From assembly GCA_020854235.1 (NCBI GenBank), contig JADZFW010000018.1, forward strand, positions 1 to 64,000: DNA of 64,000 nucleotides, written 5' to 3'. This DNA comes from Flavobacteriaceae bacterium. GTDB taxonomy: Bacteria; Bacteroidota; Bacteroidia; Flavobacteriales; Flavobacteriaceae. The position numbers were made by a program, and so were the translations under genes. How positions within the stretch are numbered: the stretch's first letter is position 1; every line of letters begins with the position of its first letter. Shown piece by piece: positions 49,537 to 60,286 of this stretch. Below the pieces are notes generated by a model, which ran no database searches, was not told where the DNA came from, and saw only the letters and a list, made by a program, of their open reading frames with translations.

Positions 49537-49542
49537 TCGTTG

Positions 49543-49652
49543 GGGCGAATTGCATTCGCCCTTTTCGTAATGTTGGGGCGAATTGCATTCGCCCTTATCG
49601 GTTGATGGCGAATGCGATTCGCCCGTACCGTTTGGGCGAATGCGATTCGCCC
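49543..49652. repeat. Cluster of four REP-like palindromes (GGCGAAT-N3-ATTCGCC)
   Basis: 49543-49561, 49576-49594, 49607-49623, 49634-49652. Confidence 0.93.
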
Positions 49653-50237
<585 letters not shown>

Positions 50238-52453: not shown

Positions 52454-52525
52454 GCCCTTGTAGTTCAACGGATAGAATAGAAGTTTCCTAAACTTTAGAT
52501 CTAGGTTCGATTCCTAGCTTGGGTA
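52454..52525 (+). tRNA. tRNA-Arg (anticodon CCT), with acceptor-stem mismatches
   Basis: GCCCTTG TA GTTC AACGGATA GAAT A GAAGT-TTCCTAA-ACTTT AGAT CTAGG-TTCGATT-CCTAG CTTGGGT A. Confidence 0.8.
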
Positions 52526-52529
52526 CAAC

Positions 52530-52560: not shown

Positions 52561-52627
52561 GTTTTATGTGCCGGCGGCAGCGAGAGACGCTGACGGAGCT
52601 AAGGTTACAAACTTCGCAGCACTATTT

Positions 52628-53122
52628 TCATTTCATAGATTTACAAAATTCATTAAAGTTAGTTATTGAAGAAACGGCATCTATAATAATCTGTTCACTA
52701 ATATATGAAAAATAGATACTTTCATACGGATCTGTATAATCTTCTATAAATTCATATGTACATTTATTGCAGTTTAAATTCTTCATATCTTCTAAATCAG
52801 ATAATAACCATTCGTGTAATGTGTTATTGCTGATTTTTTTATCAAAAATAATATATCGACCATTTATAAAAAGAAAACCTTGGCTAGATTCATATGATAA
52901 ATAATTAAATGTGTATATTGAAAACTTGGTTGAATTAGCTTGATCTATAAAAATAAATCGATAATTGTTTTCAGGATCTATTTTGTTTATATAGTTAATA
53001 TATGAGTTTAATTCTTTTTCAAAACTCCTGTTTTTAAAAATGGACTGATTAGTTTTTTTTGATGCGCATCCAAATAATAAAATTACAAATAAAATCATTG
53101 AAATAGTAATATTTTTATTCAT
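52628..53122 (-). CDS. Hypothetical lipoprotein
   Basis: MNKNITISMILFVILLFGCASKK lipobox. Confidence 0.65.
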   Translation of the reverse strand: MNKNITISMILFVILLFGCASKKTNQSIFKNRSFEKELNSYINYINKIDPENNYRFIFIDQANSTKFSIYTFNYLSYESSQGFLFINGRYIIFDKKISNNTLHEWLLSDLEDMKNLNCNKCTYEFIEDYTDPYESIYFSYISEQIIIDAVSSITNFNEFCKSMK

Positions 53123-53182
53123 GTTTATGTCTATTTAAAAATGATTGTAATAGTTCTAAAGAATTGTTTATTTTTTCCCCCT

Positions 53183-53272
53183 GCTGTGCGAAGTTTGTAA
53201 CTTCGCAACGTTCAATCATAACTATCCCCGCTGTGCAAAGTTTGTAACTTCGCAACGTTCAATCATAACTAT
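53183..53272. repeat. Two tandem 43-bp repeats (period 47) with REP-like palindrome TGCGAAGTTTGTAACTTCGCA
   Basis: GCTGTGC(G/A)AAGTTTGTAACTTCGCAACGTTCAATCATAACTAT at 53183-53225 and 53230-53272. Confidence 0.93.
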
Positions 53273-53861
53273 TCATTTTGTGAATATTAGATAAATTAAG
53301 CGAATTAATCACAGGATTATCTGCCAATGTAACTTTTATCAATCCGGTATTTTCTATATAATTACTCGCACTGGAATAAATGTAATCTTGCGGCGTTTTC
53401 ACTATGCGTGATCTTACAGGATTAAAATGTATATAATCTATTTTAGTCCAAAAAAAAGATTGTGAATATATCTCCTCCGCATGATTTCCATACTGCCAGA
53501 ACTGAAAGTTACTGTTTCTTTGATGGCTTTCTTTTGCCTTACTGAATCTCTCCAGCATCCACTCTTTGCGGCTTTCCGGTTCCTGTATTATTGCATTTAG
53601 TATGGCTTTGGAAGTATGCTTTTTAAAGTCTCGTAGAATATCTGATAAATTGCCGTCTTTGGCTTGTATGATGAGATGAATATGATTACTCATTATCACA
53701 TAGGCATAAATTATCAGCCCTTTTTTTTCAATATTATACGTCAAACTTTCAATAATAATATCCCGATAAATTTTTCGGGTAAAAATATCCACCCAATCCA
53801 CTACTGTTGCAGTAATAAAATAAGGTTTTTCCTGATCCGATATAGTATAAACTTTACTCAA
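53259..53861 (-). mobile_element. Second REP-associated/IS200-like Y1 transposase
   Basis: KPYFITATVVDWVDIFTRKIYRDIIIESL; IYAYVIMSNHIHLIIQ (HxH); DFKKHTSKAIL; IHFNPVRSRIVKTPQDYIYSSASNY. Confidence 0.93.
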
Positions 53862-53902
53862 TTTATTTTTTCTTCAAAGATAGTCCCTTTTTGTTTTAGT
53901 TG

Positions 53903-53927
53903 TGTGCGAAGTTACAAACTTCGCACA
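53903..53927. repeat. REP-like palindrome TGTGCGAAGTT-ACA-AACTTCGCACA
   Basis: Perfect 11-bp arms; inverted relative to the 53183-53272 copies. Confidence 0.93.
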
Positions 53928-53962
53928 GCGGGGCGGGTCATCAGCTAAAGTAATATGGATAT

Positions 53963-53992
53963 AGCTTACGAAGTTTTAAACTTCTCAAAGCT
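53963..53992. repeat. Diverged REP-like palindrome AGCTTACGAAGTTTTAAACTTCTCAAAGCT
   Basis: GAAGTT/AACTTC core with outer AGCTT/AAGCT arms. Confidence 0.7.
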
Positions 53993-54047
53993 GATTTTTT
54001 ATTCAATTACAATAGAAAATTGTATATTTCATTGGACATATTTTTCG

Positions 54048-54455
54048 CTATAAAATTTTATCATTGTTTTCTCTAATTAAAACACTTGTATGAAAAAATC
54101 CATAAGCAATAATAAATAAAACTGTTATTACTATAAGGTAAATAATAATTTTTTTAAGACTAGAAGTATGGTCTAATTCCTTTAAAATTCTTTTTTCTTT
54201 ATGGAAGAAATAAGCCCTATTAGCAAGATATAATAACATACCTATTATAAAGAAAACTAAAGCATAAGGCTTAAATGTTAAAATTATTTCACCTTTTTTT
54301 GAATACAAAAGATAATTTTCATAAACAGTATTAATTATAAATGTCTGAAATAAAGCTAAAACCATATTGGTGTAAAAAAAAGGCGTATCTCCCCATTGTT
54401 CAATATTTATTACCTTTTTATAAAACATATATATCACATAAAAAAAGTATTTCAT
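54048..54455 (-). CDS. Hypothetical membrane protein
   Basis: 135 aa with several hydrophobic segments. Confidence 0.55.
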   Translation of the reverse strand: MKYFFYVIYMFYKKVINIEQWGDTPFFYTNMVLALFQTFIINTVYENYLLYSKKGEIILTFKPYALVFFIIGMLLYLANRAYFFHKEKRILKELDHTSSLKKIIIYLIVITVLFIIAYGFFHTSVLIRENNDKIL

Positions 54456-54535
54456 TATCTTTTTGGTTTTAAAAATTCCAGCAGAAATAAAAGGTGTTGT
54501 TTTTCAAAGTTGTCAAACTATCAAACAGTTGTGTA

Positions 54536-54655
54536 AAGTATAAAAACCACCTCATTCCATAAAGCCTTTCCTGCTCTCGTAAAAATATATCCATTTAGTT
54601 TTCCTTTCAAAAATACTGTTTTTGTTATGTTTGCGAAGTTAAAAAACTTCAAATG
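54536..54655. repeat. Dispersed ~120-bp repeat, copy 1
   Basis: Shares ttttcctttcaaaaatactgttttt-gtt...tgcgaagtt and accacctcattc blocks with copy 2. Confidence 0.7.
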
Positions 54656-54689
54656 ATAGAGTGGATTATAACTCCTTTTCGTGCTCTAC

Positions 54690-55871
54690 TTACTTATAAT
54701 AATTTATTTCTCTATTGGAAATTTCAGTCGGTTTTAAATCTTCTTTGTTTTTCCCTTCAAAAGTTTCCATCTTTACCCAATTTCCATTTCTATCGTATTC
54801 ATACTTTTTGCTAATAACTTTAATACTTGAACCTTCAGCAGTTAAATATTCTATTAATATTACATTTTGATATGTATCATATTGTGTAATTTGAGTTTTG
54901 TATTTATCAAAGCCTAAACTCCTATATTCTCCAATAATTTCTTCATCTTTAATGATGTTACCAAATTCATTATATTCGTATTGGTACAGAAAACCGATAA
55001 TTGGGTCTTTATCAGGATAAATATAAAGTCCTTTGTATTCTATAACATTCCCTTTTTCATCATATTGATAACATACTTCTGTTTTATAAGGAGGAGAAAA
55101 CTTTGCTAATTCGTATTTCTTTGTAATCAAGTTTTGGGAGTTATACATATATCCAAATAATGGTTTTATATCGCAATTTGCTTGTCCATCACTAACACAT
55201 TCTCCTTCTTCTATTAGATTACCATTTTCATCATATTTGTTTTGTGTTAATCGTAAAGTTTCCTTTCCTTTATAGTTATAAGTCGATTTTAAAATTACTT
55301 TATCTTGAGAGTTATACTCGTATTTTTCTACTTCTTTTAAATGTTTTGATTTACCTTCTTGAGTTATTGGATTATAATCACTATACGCCCCATATGAATA
55401 TTCAGTTTTTTCAATTATTCTATTTTTATGGTCATATTTAGATAAAATCTCCTTTATTAAAATATCGGACATATATATTTTTGTTGATATTAAATTGTAA
55501 TTCTTATCATATTCATATATTTCTCCATCATTCCCAAAACTGAGTTTGTTCAGTCTCGATAAAAGTTTATTTTCTTTAAAATTGTAATGATCTTCTACCT
55601 TTTCAAGTTTTTTTATTATTGCATTGAATCCTAAACCATAATATATTATTTTATCAGGAAATCCTTTTTTATTAAATGCGTAATCAATAGAATTTAGTGA
55701 TTTATTGACTAGATGTTCACTCTTTATTTTAATAGTTTCTACTCTTCCATTCAAAACTATGTTTAATTTTTTATTGTCTTCTAATTGAAAATTTATATGT
55801 TTAGTTTGTCCTAAACAAATTGAATTAGTAGAAAATAAAAGAAAAATTGTAATGATTATTAAATGTTTCAT
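54690..55871 (-). CDS. Hypothetical secreted protein with RHS/YD-like repeats
   Basis: Signal peptide MKHLIIITIFLLFSTNSICLGQ; repeated YEYDKNYNLI, YDENGNLIEEG, YDEKGNVIEYKG, YEYNEFGNIIKDE, YEYDRNGNWVKME. Confidence 0.75.
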   Translation of the reverse strand: MKHLIIITIFLLFSTNSICLGQTKHINFQLEDNKKLNIVLNGRVETIKIKSEHLVNKSLNSIDYAFNKKGFPDKIIYYGLGFNAIIKKLEKVEDHYNFKENKLLSRLNKLSFGNDGEIYEYDKNYNLISTKIYMSDILIKEILSKYDHKNRIIEKTEYSYGAYSDYNPITQEGKSKHLKEVEKYEYNSQDKVILKSTYNYKGKETLRLTQNKYDENGNLIEEGECVSDGQANCDIKPLFGYMYNSQNLITKKYELAKFSPPYKTEVCYQYDEKGNVIEYKGLYIYPDKDPIIGFLYQYEYNEFGNIIKDEEIIGEYRSLGFDKYKTQITQYDTYQNVILIEYLTAEGSSIKVISKKYEYDRNGNWVKMETFEGKNKEDLKPTEISNREINYYK

Positions 55872-55923
55872 ATTTATAATTTTAAGAGCGCAATTTGTTA
55901 AACATCTACCGACAACATATCCA

Positions 55924-56607
55924 CTAATCAATTTTATATAAAAAATAATTTGAAGGTTTTTTGTTAAAAGCGTTAGGTCTTATTTTATTTAAGTCTATGA
56001 ATTCCCATTCTTCATTATCAAAACTTCTGATATCATTTATCTTTACATGAAAACATTTTATTTTATCGGTGCTAATAGGTAAATATAGAACTTTACTATA
56101 CATACCTGATGTTGTAATTATTTGAATTTTTTCAATTTCTGGAATATTGTTAATACAGGTTTTATCAAATTGTTCATGAAGCATTTTGCTGTCATCATCA
56201 TTAACAATAAGGATATAGTTAATCTTTTGATCTTTTTGATTGGTAACTTCAAAACAATACCCTTTTTCCAAATTTGAATTTGCATGAGATTGGCAGGGAA
56301 CAAGCTTGACTTGGTCAGAAAAATCAAATGTACTATTCAAATTCAATCTGCTACCATTTAGTTTCCATGTCCCATCTATTTCATTCTTAATAAAACTACC
56401 AATGGAATATTTATAAGTAAAATTACCATCTGTCCTTATCTGGATTTCTTCAAAAAAATTAATATTTGGGTTAGGTGTAGAATCCTTTACAAAACGATAG
56501 GTGCCGGCAATAGATGCTTGAAAATTGCTTTTGTTTAAATGTTGTTTATGGATGGTGCATCCTATTCCAAAAACAACAATCAATAATGTAAAAATCAATT
56601 TTTTCAT
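55924..56607 (-). CDS. Hypothetical lipoprotein (lipocalin-like)
   Basis: MKKLIFTLLIVVFGIGCTIHKQ lipobox; GTYRFVKDS...GTWKLNGSRLNLNS. Confidence 0.65.
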   Translation of the reverse strand: MKKLIFTLLIVVFGIGCTIHKQHLNKSNFQASIAGTYRFVKDSTPNPNINFFEEIQIRTDGNFTYKYSIGSFIKNEIDGTWKLNGSRLNLNSTFDFSDQVKLVPCQSHANSNLEKGYCFEVTNQKDQKINYILIVNDDDSKMLHEQFDKTCINNIPEIEKIQIITTSGMYSKVLYLPISTDKIKCFHVKINDIRSFDNEEWEFIDLNKIRPNAFNKKPSNYFLYKID

Positions 56608-56651
56608 ATAATTGGAATGATTTTTTTTGTACCACCCAGCTGCCCTAAGCT

Positions 56652-56790
56652 GCTAACAGTGCAAAGTTTTTAACGCCACACCTCATTCAGTAGAACCTTA
56701 ACTGTTCTTGCAAAAAATTATACATCTAGCTTTTCCTTTCAAAAATACTGTTTTTTGTTCAGGGTGCGAAGTTGCAAACCTCGTACAGTG
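56652..56790. repeat. Dispersed ~120-140-bp repeat, copy 2
   Basis: gtgcaaagtttttaacgccacacctcattc...ttttcctttcaaaaatactgttttttgttcagggtgcgaagttgcaaacctcg. Confidence 0.75.
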
Positions 56791-56808
56791 GGACATTTAC
56801 AGAGCGGA

Positions 56809-57240
56809 TTAATCAGTATAATTTTTTGAAATGGGAATGGCAATCCTAAGTTTATAATATTTACAAATTGGTTCTACTCTTCTTGAAAACTTAATGAGAT
56901 TCAAATAATTGTTCAAACTAAAGAAATCAATCTGCATGCTGTCAATTTCCTTTTCATTGACAATTAAAAGGTTTTTTTGCTCATTATTAACCAAATGTAA
57001 TTTAACTTTTTTAATGCGATAACTTTCAACTTTTAAGGAGTCATTTACAAGCAAATCTATAAAACAATAGCCACTAGTTTCAAACGCATATTCCTCAGCC
57101 TTAAAAAATATTTGTAATTCTTTTACCCTACTAAAATCAGCTGTAATGGGTTCGATTGGATCAATTTCTAATATTTCTTTATGTAGCGTTTTACAGTTTA
57201 AAAAAAGTCCAAATATTAATAAATAATACAAAATTTTCAT
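56809..57240 (-). CDS. Hypothetical lipoprotein
   Basis: MKILYYLLIFGLFLNCKTLHKE lipobox. Confidence 0.6.
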   Translation of the reverse strand: MKILYYLLIFGLFLNCKTLHKEILEIDPIEPITADFSRVKELQIFFKAEEYAFETSGYCFIDLLVNDSLKVESYRIKKVKLHLVNNEQKNLLIVNEKEIDSMQIDFFSLNNYLNLIKFSRRVEPICKYYKLRIAIPISKNYTD

Positions 57241-57370
57241 AGAATCAATAATTAATATGGTGAATAGGATAAAATTTTGATATTAAAATTCTATTTTAAT
57301 TTCAGCCATGCAAGGCTTATAAAAACAATCCATTCAATATATATTACCTGCAAGTCAGATACAGTTCACT

Positions 57371-57838
57371 TTATTTTGTACTCACTTTTTTTTTATTAAC
57401 TTCATCTAAAGAATCCAATTTTTTTAAAATAAGTTTATCAGATATTTCATTTTTTAATTTCACCAACTTTCCTTTATAGACATAATCAATATCTAAATAT
57501 TCTGTTCGAACTTCAAAAGTATACGTCTTATCACTTATTTTAGTATTTGTTATTCTCCATGTTAAAGTGTCAATATAACTTCTTTTTTGAATAATGTTAT
57601 ATAATATAGAACAGTCTTTATAGGTAAGTTTTGAAATGGGAATTCTCTCATCATCAAGATATCGATCAATTTGATAATCTTTAGACCTATAAATATGCCC
57701 AATAAGTTTATCATTTTCATATATTTCAAAAGTCCCATTCTTAATATCACTACAATTGCCAACATGCTTCTTTGTTTTACAATTTAATAAGAGAAGAGTA
57801 CTAATAATTAAGGTGCAGGTTAAAATGCTTTTTTTCAT
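57371..57838 (-). CDS. Hypothetical lipoprotein
   Basis: MKKSILTCTLIISTLLLLNCKTKKHVG lipobox. Confidence 0.65.
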   Translation of the reverse strand: MKKSILTCTLIISTLLLLNCKTKKHVGNCSDIKNGTFEIYENDKLIGHIYRSKDYQIDRYLDDERIPISKLTYKDCSILYNIIQKRSYIDTLTWRITNTKISDKTYTFEVRTEYLDIDYVYKGKLVKLKNEISDKLILKKLDSLDEVNKKKVSTK

Positions 57839-57881
57839 AAGAGTAATTTTGTTTAAAAAAAGAAACAAATGATAATATTCC

Positions 57882-58000
57882 ACAACGACGCCAAGTTTAT
57901 AACGCCACTCCATACATCAAACCCTTATCATTCTTGTATAAGCTAAGCCACCTACTTTTCCCCTCAAAATACCCATTTGGTTAAGTGTGCCAAACTTCTA
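57882..58000. repeat. Dispersed ~120-bp repeat, copy 3 (most diverged)
   Basis: aacgacgccaagtttataacgccactccat...cttttcccctcaaaatacccatttggttaagtgtgccaaactt. Confidence 0.6.
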
Positions 58001-58015
58001 AAGTTTTCCTCAGAA

Positions 58016-59452
58016 TCATACAACTTCCTCCGAAGTCAAATCTTCCGAATAATCCGTATCAAATCTTCGTGCCGCATCATCGTCAAATTCTCCTTCCCAT
58101 CGTGCTACAACTGCCGTAGCCAAACAATTCCCTATTACATTGACACCCGTCCGTGCCATATCCATCAACTCATCTATTCCCAATATGATGAATATCGGCC
58201 AGGTAGGTAAACCAAAACTGGCAGCCGTTCCCAATAATATGACCAGCGAAGCTCGCGGTACGCCGGCAACACCTTTACTTGTTACCATCAAAGTTAAAAC
58301 AATTAAGATCTGCTGCGAAATACTCAAATCGATATCCGCTACTTGCGCCACAAAAATGGTCGCCAATGAAAGATATAAAGTCGTCCCATCCAAATTAAAA
58401 CTGTATCCCGTAGGCATCACAAATGCCACAATTTTTTGCGGTACTCCAAATTTTTGCATGTTTTCCATAGCAATGGGTAATGCTGATTCCGAACTGGTCG
58501 TCGCAAAGGCAATACTAAAAGGCTCCGATACGGCAGCTATAAATTTTCGAATGGGAATCCTGATTATAAGTGCAATGGGCAATAAAATGACTAATAAAAA
58601 TACAATCAAAGCAAGATACAATGTGGCAAGCAACCAAGCTAAATTGACCAAAATATCAATTCCCATATGCCCCACCGAATAAGCAATGGCGGCAAAAACC
58701 GCAACCGGAGCAAAATACATCACAATATTGGTAAACTTAAACATCGTCTCCGATAAGGCTTTGGTAAATGTCAACATGGGTCGTTGGTACTTCTCGCTTA
58801 AAAGTGCTACCGCGATTCCAAAAATGATACTGAAAACCACAATTTGTAAGACTTGACCTTCTGCAACCGATTTAGCTATATTCTCCGGAAATATGTGCAA
58901 AATAATTTCTTCCGTGGTCTGCGCTTTGACCGGATTGATCTGTGCCACAGCGTCCGTGAGCGGTTTTTCTACGCCTTCACCGGCTTTACTGATGTTGATG
59001 GCTATCAATCCAATGAACAACGCAATGGTCGAAACAACTTCAAAATACAATATCGATTTCCAACTCATCCTTCCTACTTGCTTCAAATCGGCATGACCGG
59101 CTATGCCTACAACCAAAGTCGAGAAAATCAAAGGACCGATGATCGTCTTGACTAAATTGAGAAAAATCTTACTGAAAATATTCATCTTCGATGCCCATAA
59201 AGGGATATCATAACCAAACTCAGCTCCCAGCACCATGCTGATCAATATCCAAGTAGTGAGCGATTTGCGTTTGATGGCATACAGAACCAATAAGACTATT
59301 CCAGCCAATCTGGACACCAGTAATACACGTGCATGTACTGAAGTAATTTGATAAAAATCTAAGAGATGTAAGGCGCTACTGATGAATAAAACCGAAACAA
59401 ACAATAAAATCAAAGTTGATTTTTTTTGAAAAATAGTTTGAAGTATGGACAT
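58016..59452 (-). CDS. Dicarboxylate/amino acid:cation symporter (DAACS family)
   Basis: ATTSSESALPIAMENMQKFGVPQKIVAFVMPTGYSFNLDGTTLYLS; GTAASFGLPTWPIFIILGIDELMDMARTGVNVIGNCLATAVVARWEG. Confidence 0.94.
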   Translation of the reverse strand: MSILQTIFQKKSTLILLFVSVLFISSALHLLDFYQITSVHARVLLVSRLAGIVLLVLYAIKRKSLTTWILISMVLGAEFGYDIPLWASKMNIFSKIFLNLVKTIIGPLIFSTLVVGIAGHADLKQVGRMSWKSILYFEVVSTIALFIGLIAINISKAGEGVEKPLTDAVAQINPVKAQTTEEIILHIFPENIAKSVAEGQVLQIVVFSIIFGIAVALLSEKYQRPMLTFTKALSETMFKFTNIVMYFAPVAVFAAIAYSVGHMGIDILVNLAWLLATLYLALIVFLLVILLPIALIIRIPIRKFIAAVSEPFSIAFATTSSESALPIAMENMQKFGVPQKIVAFVMPTGYSFNLDGTTLYLSLATIFVAQVADIDLSISQQILIVLTLMVTSKGVAGVPRASLVILLGTAASFGLPTWPIFIILGIDELMDMARTGVNVIGNCLATAVVARWEGEFDDDAARRFDTDYSEDLTSEEVV

Positions 59453-59784
59453 GTTTTTTATTTTAAAAAGTCTAAATCCCAATCAAACAAAAATAGGTTT
59501 TTATATCCGTACTACAATAGAGTGACTGTTTTTTTTCCTAATCGACACTTTGAAATATAGATGCAAGGTCGGTATTCTTTTTACGCATTCTTCATAAGGG
59601 AAAGGCTGTGCAAATAGATAAATTGCGCTTAAAAATTTAATTTAAGTACTTTCCTGAATCGTTAAAATAAATTTGAAAAGCCTTAATTTTAATTTATTAC
59701 AACCTCTTTGAATTGAGATTTGCCCAAAATAAGGTCCAGTCTCAGCTGTAGTACAAACCTTAGAAGCACAATTTTTTCTGATAA

Positions 59785-60165
59785 TTAAATACGGTGTTCC
59801 GAAATAGGTACAATTTGTTCCAAATTAGATACAAAATGTTCCAAACAATGAACAAGTTGTTCCAAACAATGAACAAAATGTTCCAAACAAGAAACTTGCT
59901 GTTCCAAACAATGAACCTTTTGTTCCAAACAATGAACCTTTTGTTCCAAAACATGAACATGTTGTTCCAAAATATGAACAAAATGTTCCAAAACATGAAC
60001 AAAATGTTCCAAAAGATGAACATGTTGTTCCAAAACATGAACAAAATGTTCCAAAAAGTGAACAAAGTGTTCCAAAACATGAATAAAGTGTTCCAAAACA
60101 TGAACAAAGTGTTCTAAAACATGAATAAAGTGTTCCAAATATGCAACATGAGGTTCTGAAATCAA
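59785..60165 (-). CDS. Possible heptad-repeat (His-rich coiled-coil-like) protein encoded by the 21-bp array
   Basis: 126-aa ORF of (VLEHFVH)n; three other frames over the array are also open, so coding status is unproven. Confidence 0.3.
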   Translation of the reverse strand: MISEPHVAYLEHFIHVLEHFVHVLEHFIHVLEHFVHFLEHFVHVLEQHVHLLEHFVHVLEHFVHILEQHVHVLEQKVHCLEQKVHCLEQQVSCLEHFVHCLEQLVHCLEHFVSNLEQIVPISEHRI

Positions 60166-60172
60166 ACCATTT
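59795..60172. repeat. 21-bp tandem array, 18 units (last degenerate)
   Basis: Units start every 21 bp from 59795 without indel; consensus TGTTCCAAAACATGAACAAAA. Confidence 0.97.
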
Positions 60173-60286
60173 CAAGGTGTAGTAGAGGTCATTTCAAACG
60201 AAGTGAGATATCTTTTTTTAGGAATCAATCGCAGATGATTACTAAAAGGCTCTATATCTCATCGCTTATTATCTTGTTTCATATAC

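Follow-up and report, generated by a model that had tools for sequence, protein, structure and literature searches.

A transposase of the REP-associated kind in an accessory island of small lipoprotein genes from a Flavobacteriaceae bacterium: a probable array of orphan immunity genes

How do small, unrelated lipoprotein genes come to be assembled in one place, and what are the repeats between them? The question is raised by a stretch of about 5.4 kb between a tRNA-Arg(CCT) gene and a dctA-like gene in a Flavobacteriaceae bacterium (assembly GCA_020854235.1), on the first 64,000 nucleotides of contig JADZFW010000018.1, the whole of which is called the window here. A preliminary description took this island to be a repeat-delimited accessory locus, in which genes are gained or shuffled between sites related to the RAYTs (REP-associated tyrosine transposases, REP being a repetitive extragenic palindrome). 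The island probably represents an accessory, co-oriented array of orphan immunity genes against Rhs-type polymorphic toxins of competing bacteria, in which a RAYT and miniature derivatives of it have settled in the gaps.

All seven open reading frames (ORFs) of the island are on the minus strand, as first described (Table 1). Leaving out the RAYT gene, the cargo amounts to six ORFs of 135-393 amino acids, which encode four lipoproteins, one membrane protein and one secreted protein with YD repeats. The impression that these are mostly small lipoproteins or secreted proteins is borne out by the lipobox, found in 4/6 cargo ORFs (4/7 island ORFs) and in only 1/52 of the other ORFs in the window. 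The cargo has a GC content of 21-27%, compared to 35% for the window.

The gene at 53259-53861 scores 103.4 bits against the NCBIfam family NF047646 (cut-off 80), and its alignment retains an intact HxH motif (H60xH62) and an intact YIHxNP motif (as YIHFNP). It lies between REPs with the consensus CCCnGCTGTGCGAAGTTTGnAACTTCGCA that take opposite orientations on the two sides (53179-53259 versus 53900-53995) and have further copies in the genome. The REP palindrome TGCGAAGTTNNNAACTTCGCA, allowing up to three mismatches, has five matches in the 64 kb, all at 53187-56785, where 0.03 would be expected. By its sequence, then, this is a RAYT, with inverted REP palindromes on either side of it. The repeats previously listed at 53183-53272 and 53903-53992 are real, but they are the short REPs that flank the RAYT, inverted relative to each other. 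A half site listed at 52603-52621 is weak and, taken alone, not significant (E 2.8). The suggestion that the repeats are RAYT-related stands, both for these REPs and for the longer repeats described below, although the transposase gene itself had gone unnamed.

A second RAYT, of a different family, is found at 49653-50237 (region 49539-50237). It has its own REP, GTTGGGGCGAATTGCATTCGCCC, one copy of which is located inside the gene (49880-49908), as described for subclass 2.4 (PMC6006769). It was considered as a control and set aside, as it has too few homologues in the same genomes. A RAYT of the Bacteroidota clade also occurs in an Aggregatibacter segnis assembly (L229), through either horizontal transfer or contamination.

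Three repeats of about 120 bp, A, B and C, are found in the gaps between the cargo genes or at the right edge of the island. Ungapped identity is 73% between A (54548-54613) and B (56679-56744), A and C are 61% identical, and none of 1000 dinucleotide shuffles reached the score of any of the three pairs. Multiple alignment confirms that they are related and run in the same direction, as had been proposed. Aligned on the minus strand, they consist of a REP, an A-rich leader, a TATCTTTG/TATTTTTG motif, the first codons of the RAYT and a second REP-like end. We take the motif to resemble the Bacteroidota -7 box. The match to the 5' region of the RAYT was equalled by 0/1000 shuffles for A, 10/1000 for B and 17/1000 for C. 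Contig 88 of the same genome carries a relic made from a REP and the RAYT 5' end (C88), whose match to repeat B was equalled by 0/1000 shuffles. A clean 110-bp element on contig 29 of a sister species (G001) comprises a REP, the leader, the RAYT start and an inverted REP, and folds strongly (z -6.0). Since the leader and first-codon matches are bridged by these copies in G001 and contig 88, repeats A-C are most likely internally deleted RAYT units, a reading with strong support for A and the G001 copy and weaker support for B and C. In its layout, the G001 copy also resembles a REPIN, a mobile unit in which a pair of inverted REPs spaced by about 60-100 bp folds into one hairpin. Repeats A, B and C fold no better than shuffles, and a hairpin in them was rejected. 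A known RNA element was likewise rejected, the tRNA being the sole match to reach the cut-off in the Rfam scan, and the matches that the repeat core has in distant genomes (L018-L029) are short and probably due to chance.

In an integron-like version of the preliminary reading, the ~120-bp element would be the recombination site of a cassette system of its own, and single modules of one gene and one repeat would be captured. The genes and repeats are indeed co-oriented, five gaps contain repeats, the genes are small orphans, and synteny breakpoints adjoin REPs: the gene order that this genome shares with G001 at 90-92% identity breaks off, on contig 127, about 100 bp from a REP. However, the match of the long repeat is to the 5' unit of the RAYT, which makes it most likely a deletion derivative rather than a dedicated cassette boundary, and a similarity search found only two good copies in the genome. 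Neither phmmer searches with five recombinases as queries nor a motif search revealed a recombinase or integrase in the window. An integron cassette array proper (IntI with attC sites) was rejected on the lack of a recombinase in the window and the match to the RAYT unit, no attC-model search having been made. Repeats do occupy several of the gaps between genes, but those between ORF4 and ORF5 and between ORF6 and ORF7 have none, so that cassette units would contain two genes. Nor was any cassette caught moving as a unit among the relatives compared. Such a cassette system is thus improbable.

The island is accessory and adjoins a tRNA, as had been described. Another sister species, G002, keeps CAAX protease, menC and tRNA-Arg(CCT) in this order, and there the tRNA leads directly into a housekeeping block that includes an EF-G-like gene, with no island. 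A concatenated query of ORFs 1, 3, 5, 6 and 7, which left out ORF4, yielded three distant matches outside the window's own genome in 199 relatives. The dctA neighbourhood in G002 is unrelated and therefore unusable for synteny. A genomic island inserted at the tRNA-Arg by a site-specific recombinase would agree with the start of the island about 100 bp past the tRNA 3' end and with its absence after the same tRNA in G002. However, the window has neither a duplicated tRNA end nor an integrase that could be found, and the tRNA was rejected as an attachment site. Moreover, the gene next after the tRNA in G002 is a different one from dctA, the far flank here, which indicates a rearrangement and not a clean insertion. 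Insertion of this kind is very unlikely.

Elsewhere in the genome, REPs keep similar company. The REP model (R1) identifies about a dozen copies, on contigs 41, 88, 127, 146 and 199 as well as in the window. Lipoproteins make up 8/18 of the genes adjacent to REPs compared to 8/160 of other genes (P 2e-5), and without the window the proportion is still 5/13 (P 1e-3). A search for the repeat next to other orphan genes had been proposed, and REPs outside the window do also adjoin small lipoprotein genes. The neighbour of the RAYT relic, C88b, has a homologue (E 4e-9) that in turn adjoins the RAYT of an Aquimarina Rhs locus. A Flavobacteriales metagenome-assembled genome (L157, 4866-7660) contains four similar-looking lipoprotein genes in tandem beside REPs and a RAYT, and resembles another lipoprotein array.

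The connection to toxins comes from the relatives. A scan for Rhs cores in 19 genomes covered 18 independent RAYT loci, counting a core within 3 kb as adjacent. Seven of the 18 RAYTs were adjacent to a core, whereas 0.18 would be expected (about 40-fold; P 5e-11). In all seven, the RAYT is downstream of the core and on the same strand, a placement that is partly trivial because the Rhs gene itself occupies the upstream side of its core. Among 80 loci retrieved from GTDB genomes with the RAYT alignment, five had a core within 3 kb, in each case on the same strand and 1.4-2.0 kb upstream; the rest of the flank added only two more cores. On the RAYT tree, the label "Rhs-adjacent" requires at least 8 changes, indicating that adjacency arose or was lost many times. 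The genes directly after the Rhs core in the loci examined encode lipoproteins in 9/21 cases (one of the 21 being a spurious short Rhs match), compared to 1/52 in the rest of the window.

The clearest example is G054, whose RAYT is 60% identical to that of the window. Its arrays consist of alternating Rhs tips, genes in the immunity position, REPs and the RAYT, and 4 of about 18 REP clusters have an Rhs core no more than 5 kb away (P 1e-4, with approximate coverage). A second REP family, GCTCGTTTGTAACGAGTGCC, punctuates the same Rhs cassettes in G054 (L117 1489, 2797, 9605 and 9810; L118 10988). In other loci, groups of tyrosine recombinase genes in tandem are located directly upstream of units made from a displaced Rhs core, immunity gene and RAYT (L245 1613-6684, L247 1884-3684 and L181 6390-8229).

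It is also in G054 that ORF1 has its single clear homologue (E 5e-19, 31% identity), encoded 16 bp downstream of an Rhs core gene whose tip is a Toxin-JAB1. Imm65 is described by Zhang et al. as a lipoprotein and a strict partner of Tox-JAB-1 in Bacteroidetes (PMC3482391). The G054 homologue occupies the corresponding position and ORF1 has the lipobox, which makes ORF1 a probable Imm65-like immunity protein. Its membership is unproven, as ORF1 has no neighbouring toxin gene and matches no Imm65 profile. ORF3 resembles the Bfi1 immunity family, NF053699, over its full length but weakly (E 0.013). A low-confidence model of ORF3 is helical; the single-sequence AlphaFold models of ORF1 and ORF3 have predicted local distance difference test values of 41 and 69, too low to interpret. 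For the cargo other than ORF1, we infer an immunity function.

Because the same RAYT/REP family sits among toxin and immunity cassettes in many relatives, the island most likely serves as a store of immunity genes against the toxins of rival bacteria. Several observations weigh against this. ORF1 alone has a homologue in the immunity position; the neighbourhoods of the ORF5 and ORF7 homologues were inspected and showed no Rhs context, and the ORF3 match is below the cut-off of its family. No Rhs core was found in the window's genome, which is 76% complete. The five-row clade of the window's RAYT has no Rhs-adjacent member, 75 of the 80 GTDB loci lack a core within 3 kb, and Rhs loci may act as hot spots for mobile elements of any kind. 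For repeats B and C, the match to the 5' end of the RAYT reaches only about the 1-2% level.

The main rival reading is plain decay, in which a RAYT and its miniatures ended up in a dispensable, AT-rich stretch with orphan lipoprotein genes of mixed function, the repeats having no role. The repeats are decayed and few, with some 12 REPs in the genome, the island is AT-rich, REP elements generally favour intergenic space, and most Bacteroidota RAYT loci have no Rhs core nearby. However, decay alone would not account for the enrichment of lipoprotein genes beside REPs elsewhere in the genome, nor for an adjacency to Rhs that exceeds expectation and recurs across the RAYT tree. It is a real possibility, if not the likely one.

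If the island is an immunity-gene array, its history might have been as follows. RAYTs and REP elements would build up behind Rhs toxin/immunity cassettes, on the 3' side. Whenever a cassette is displaced or passed on, the REP elements and immunity genes would be left behind or move together, and repeats common to several sites would then allow further gain and loss via recombination or RAYT-mediated single-strand transposition. Such REP-driven shuffling of cassettes is something we infer from the arrangement. The REPs may be the drivers of immunity-gene collection or hitch-hikers in a hot spot. A stronger version, put forward tentatively and thought rather unlikely, is that this Bacteroidota RAYT/REP family is functionally tied to polymorphic-toxin loci, with cutting or recombination at the REP after each cassette serving to collect, shuffle and bank immunity genes. 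It would be a HuH-transposase counterpart of rAID, the recombinase-associated acquired interbacterial defence loci of Bacteroidales (PMC12247911).

The likeness to rAID extends to co-oriented short genes of low GC content, here the six minus-strand cargo ORFs, to repeated intergenic sequences, here repeats A-C, to the proposed orphan immunity and to absence from relatives (PMC12247911). However, rAID has a tyrosine recombinase; none was found in the window, which has an HuH/Y1 REP transposase instead, and the island is therefore not a member. Its intergenic repeats also look RAYT-derived, its cargo is largely lipoproteins, and in relatives the same elements accompany Rhs toxins. Heterogeneous polyimmunity loci, as presented in the available part of PMC3482391, similarly have several unrelated small proteins encoded in tandem without a toxin gene, and the island probably shares with them at least one Imm65-like member; the homologue of ORF1 is toxin-linked, that of ORF3 is a weak match, and the other cargo has no homologue beside a toxin. 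Some polyimmunity loci adjoin XerC/D recombinases, and that part of the source does not mention an association with RAYTs or REPs.

The RAYT itself resembles those of REPtrons, REPINs and TnpA-REP subclass 2.6, found mostly in Bacteroidetes, in its HuH transposase with NH[LIV]H and YIHxNP motifs, inverted flanking palindromes and copies elsewhere (PMC6006769). It differs in that the copies are few and concentrated by orphan lipoprotein genes and Rhs immunity-position genes, and in that the miniatures retain the RAYT leader and promoter. In the displaced-tip arrays of the Serratia Rhs1 locus, orphan immunity genes remain downstream of an exchangeable toxin tip (PMC10539506), an arrangement that the island recalls, except that the window has no Rhs gene and REP elements separate its genes.

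Subclass 2.6 RAYTs of Bacteroidetes (PMC6006769) and polyimmunity loci are thus already known. The link to Rhs toxin/immunity loci and the likely immunity cargo were absent from the preliminary description, which had the RAYT relation right. A literature search, with most subscription journals outside its scope, found no paper combining "RAYT" and "Rhs" and none on REP elements in toxin/immunity arrays. How stockpiles of immunity genes without toxins are assembled is an open question, stated as such for rAID (PMC12247911), and a recurrent link between domesticated RAYTs and Rhs in unrelated RAYT lineages offers a concrete, testable mechanism. REP elements could also serve as landmarks for finding new immunity genes, and the link points to a possible habitat for RAYTs of unclear benefit to their host.

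Table 1. Features of the island and its flanks, in window coordinates.
Feature	Position	Strand	Evidence
tRNA-Arg(CCT), conserved left flank	52454-52526	+	ARAGORN, Rfam; CAAX-menC-tRNA-Arg order also in G002
Degenerate REP half site	52601-52621	+	REP model 9.5 bits, E 2.8
ORF1, lipoprotein, 164 aa, probable Imm65-like immunity protein	52628-53122	-	Homologue in G054 after Rhs-Toxin-JAB1 gene
Two tandem REP copies, 47-nt unit, just past RAYT 3' end	53179-53259	+	REP model 48.1 and 44.3 bits
RAYT, 200 aa	53259-53861	-	NCBIfam NF047646, Pfam Y1_Tnp, motif alignment
REP 5' of RAYT, inverted relative to 3' REPs	53900-53933	-	REP model 47 bits
Further degenerate REP	53962-53995	-	REP model 34.8 bits
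ORF3, membrane protein, 135 aa, possible immunity protein	54048-54455	-	Weak NF053699 match
Repeat A: REP, RAYT leader/promoter, first codons, degenerate second REP	54525-54660	-	Shuffles, alignment
ORF4, secreted YD-repeat protein, 393 aa	54690-55871	-	RHS_repeat PF05593 E 4e-7; TIGR01643
ORF5, lipoprotein, 227 aa	55924-56607	-	Lipobox; Lipocalin_4 E 0.008, below cut-off
Repeat B: probable deletion derivative of RAYT unit, good REP at one end	56652-56793	-	REP model 38.4 bits
ORF6, orphan lipoprotein, 143 aa	56809-57240	-	Profile search, lipobox
ORF7, lipoprotein, 155 aa	57371-57838	-	Lipobox; distant homologue in G005, not in an Rhs locus
Repeat C: probable derivative of RAYT unit, most decayed	57882-58005	-	Alignment, shuffles
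Dicarboxylate symporter (dctA-like), right flank	58016-59452	-	SDF PF00375

Beyond the island, between dctA and the next gene, is a tandem array of about 15 units of a 21-nt repeat (59730-60191) with several open frames, possibly a variable repeat or a low-complexity peptide.

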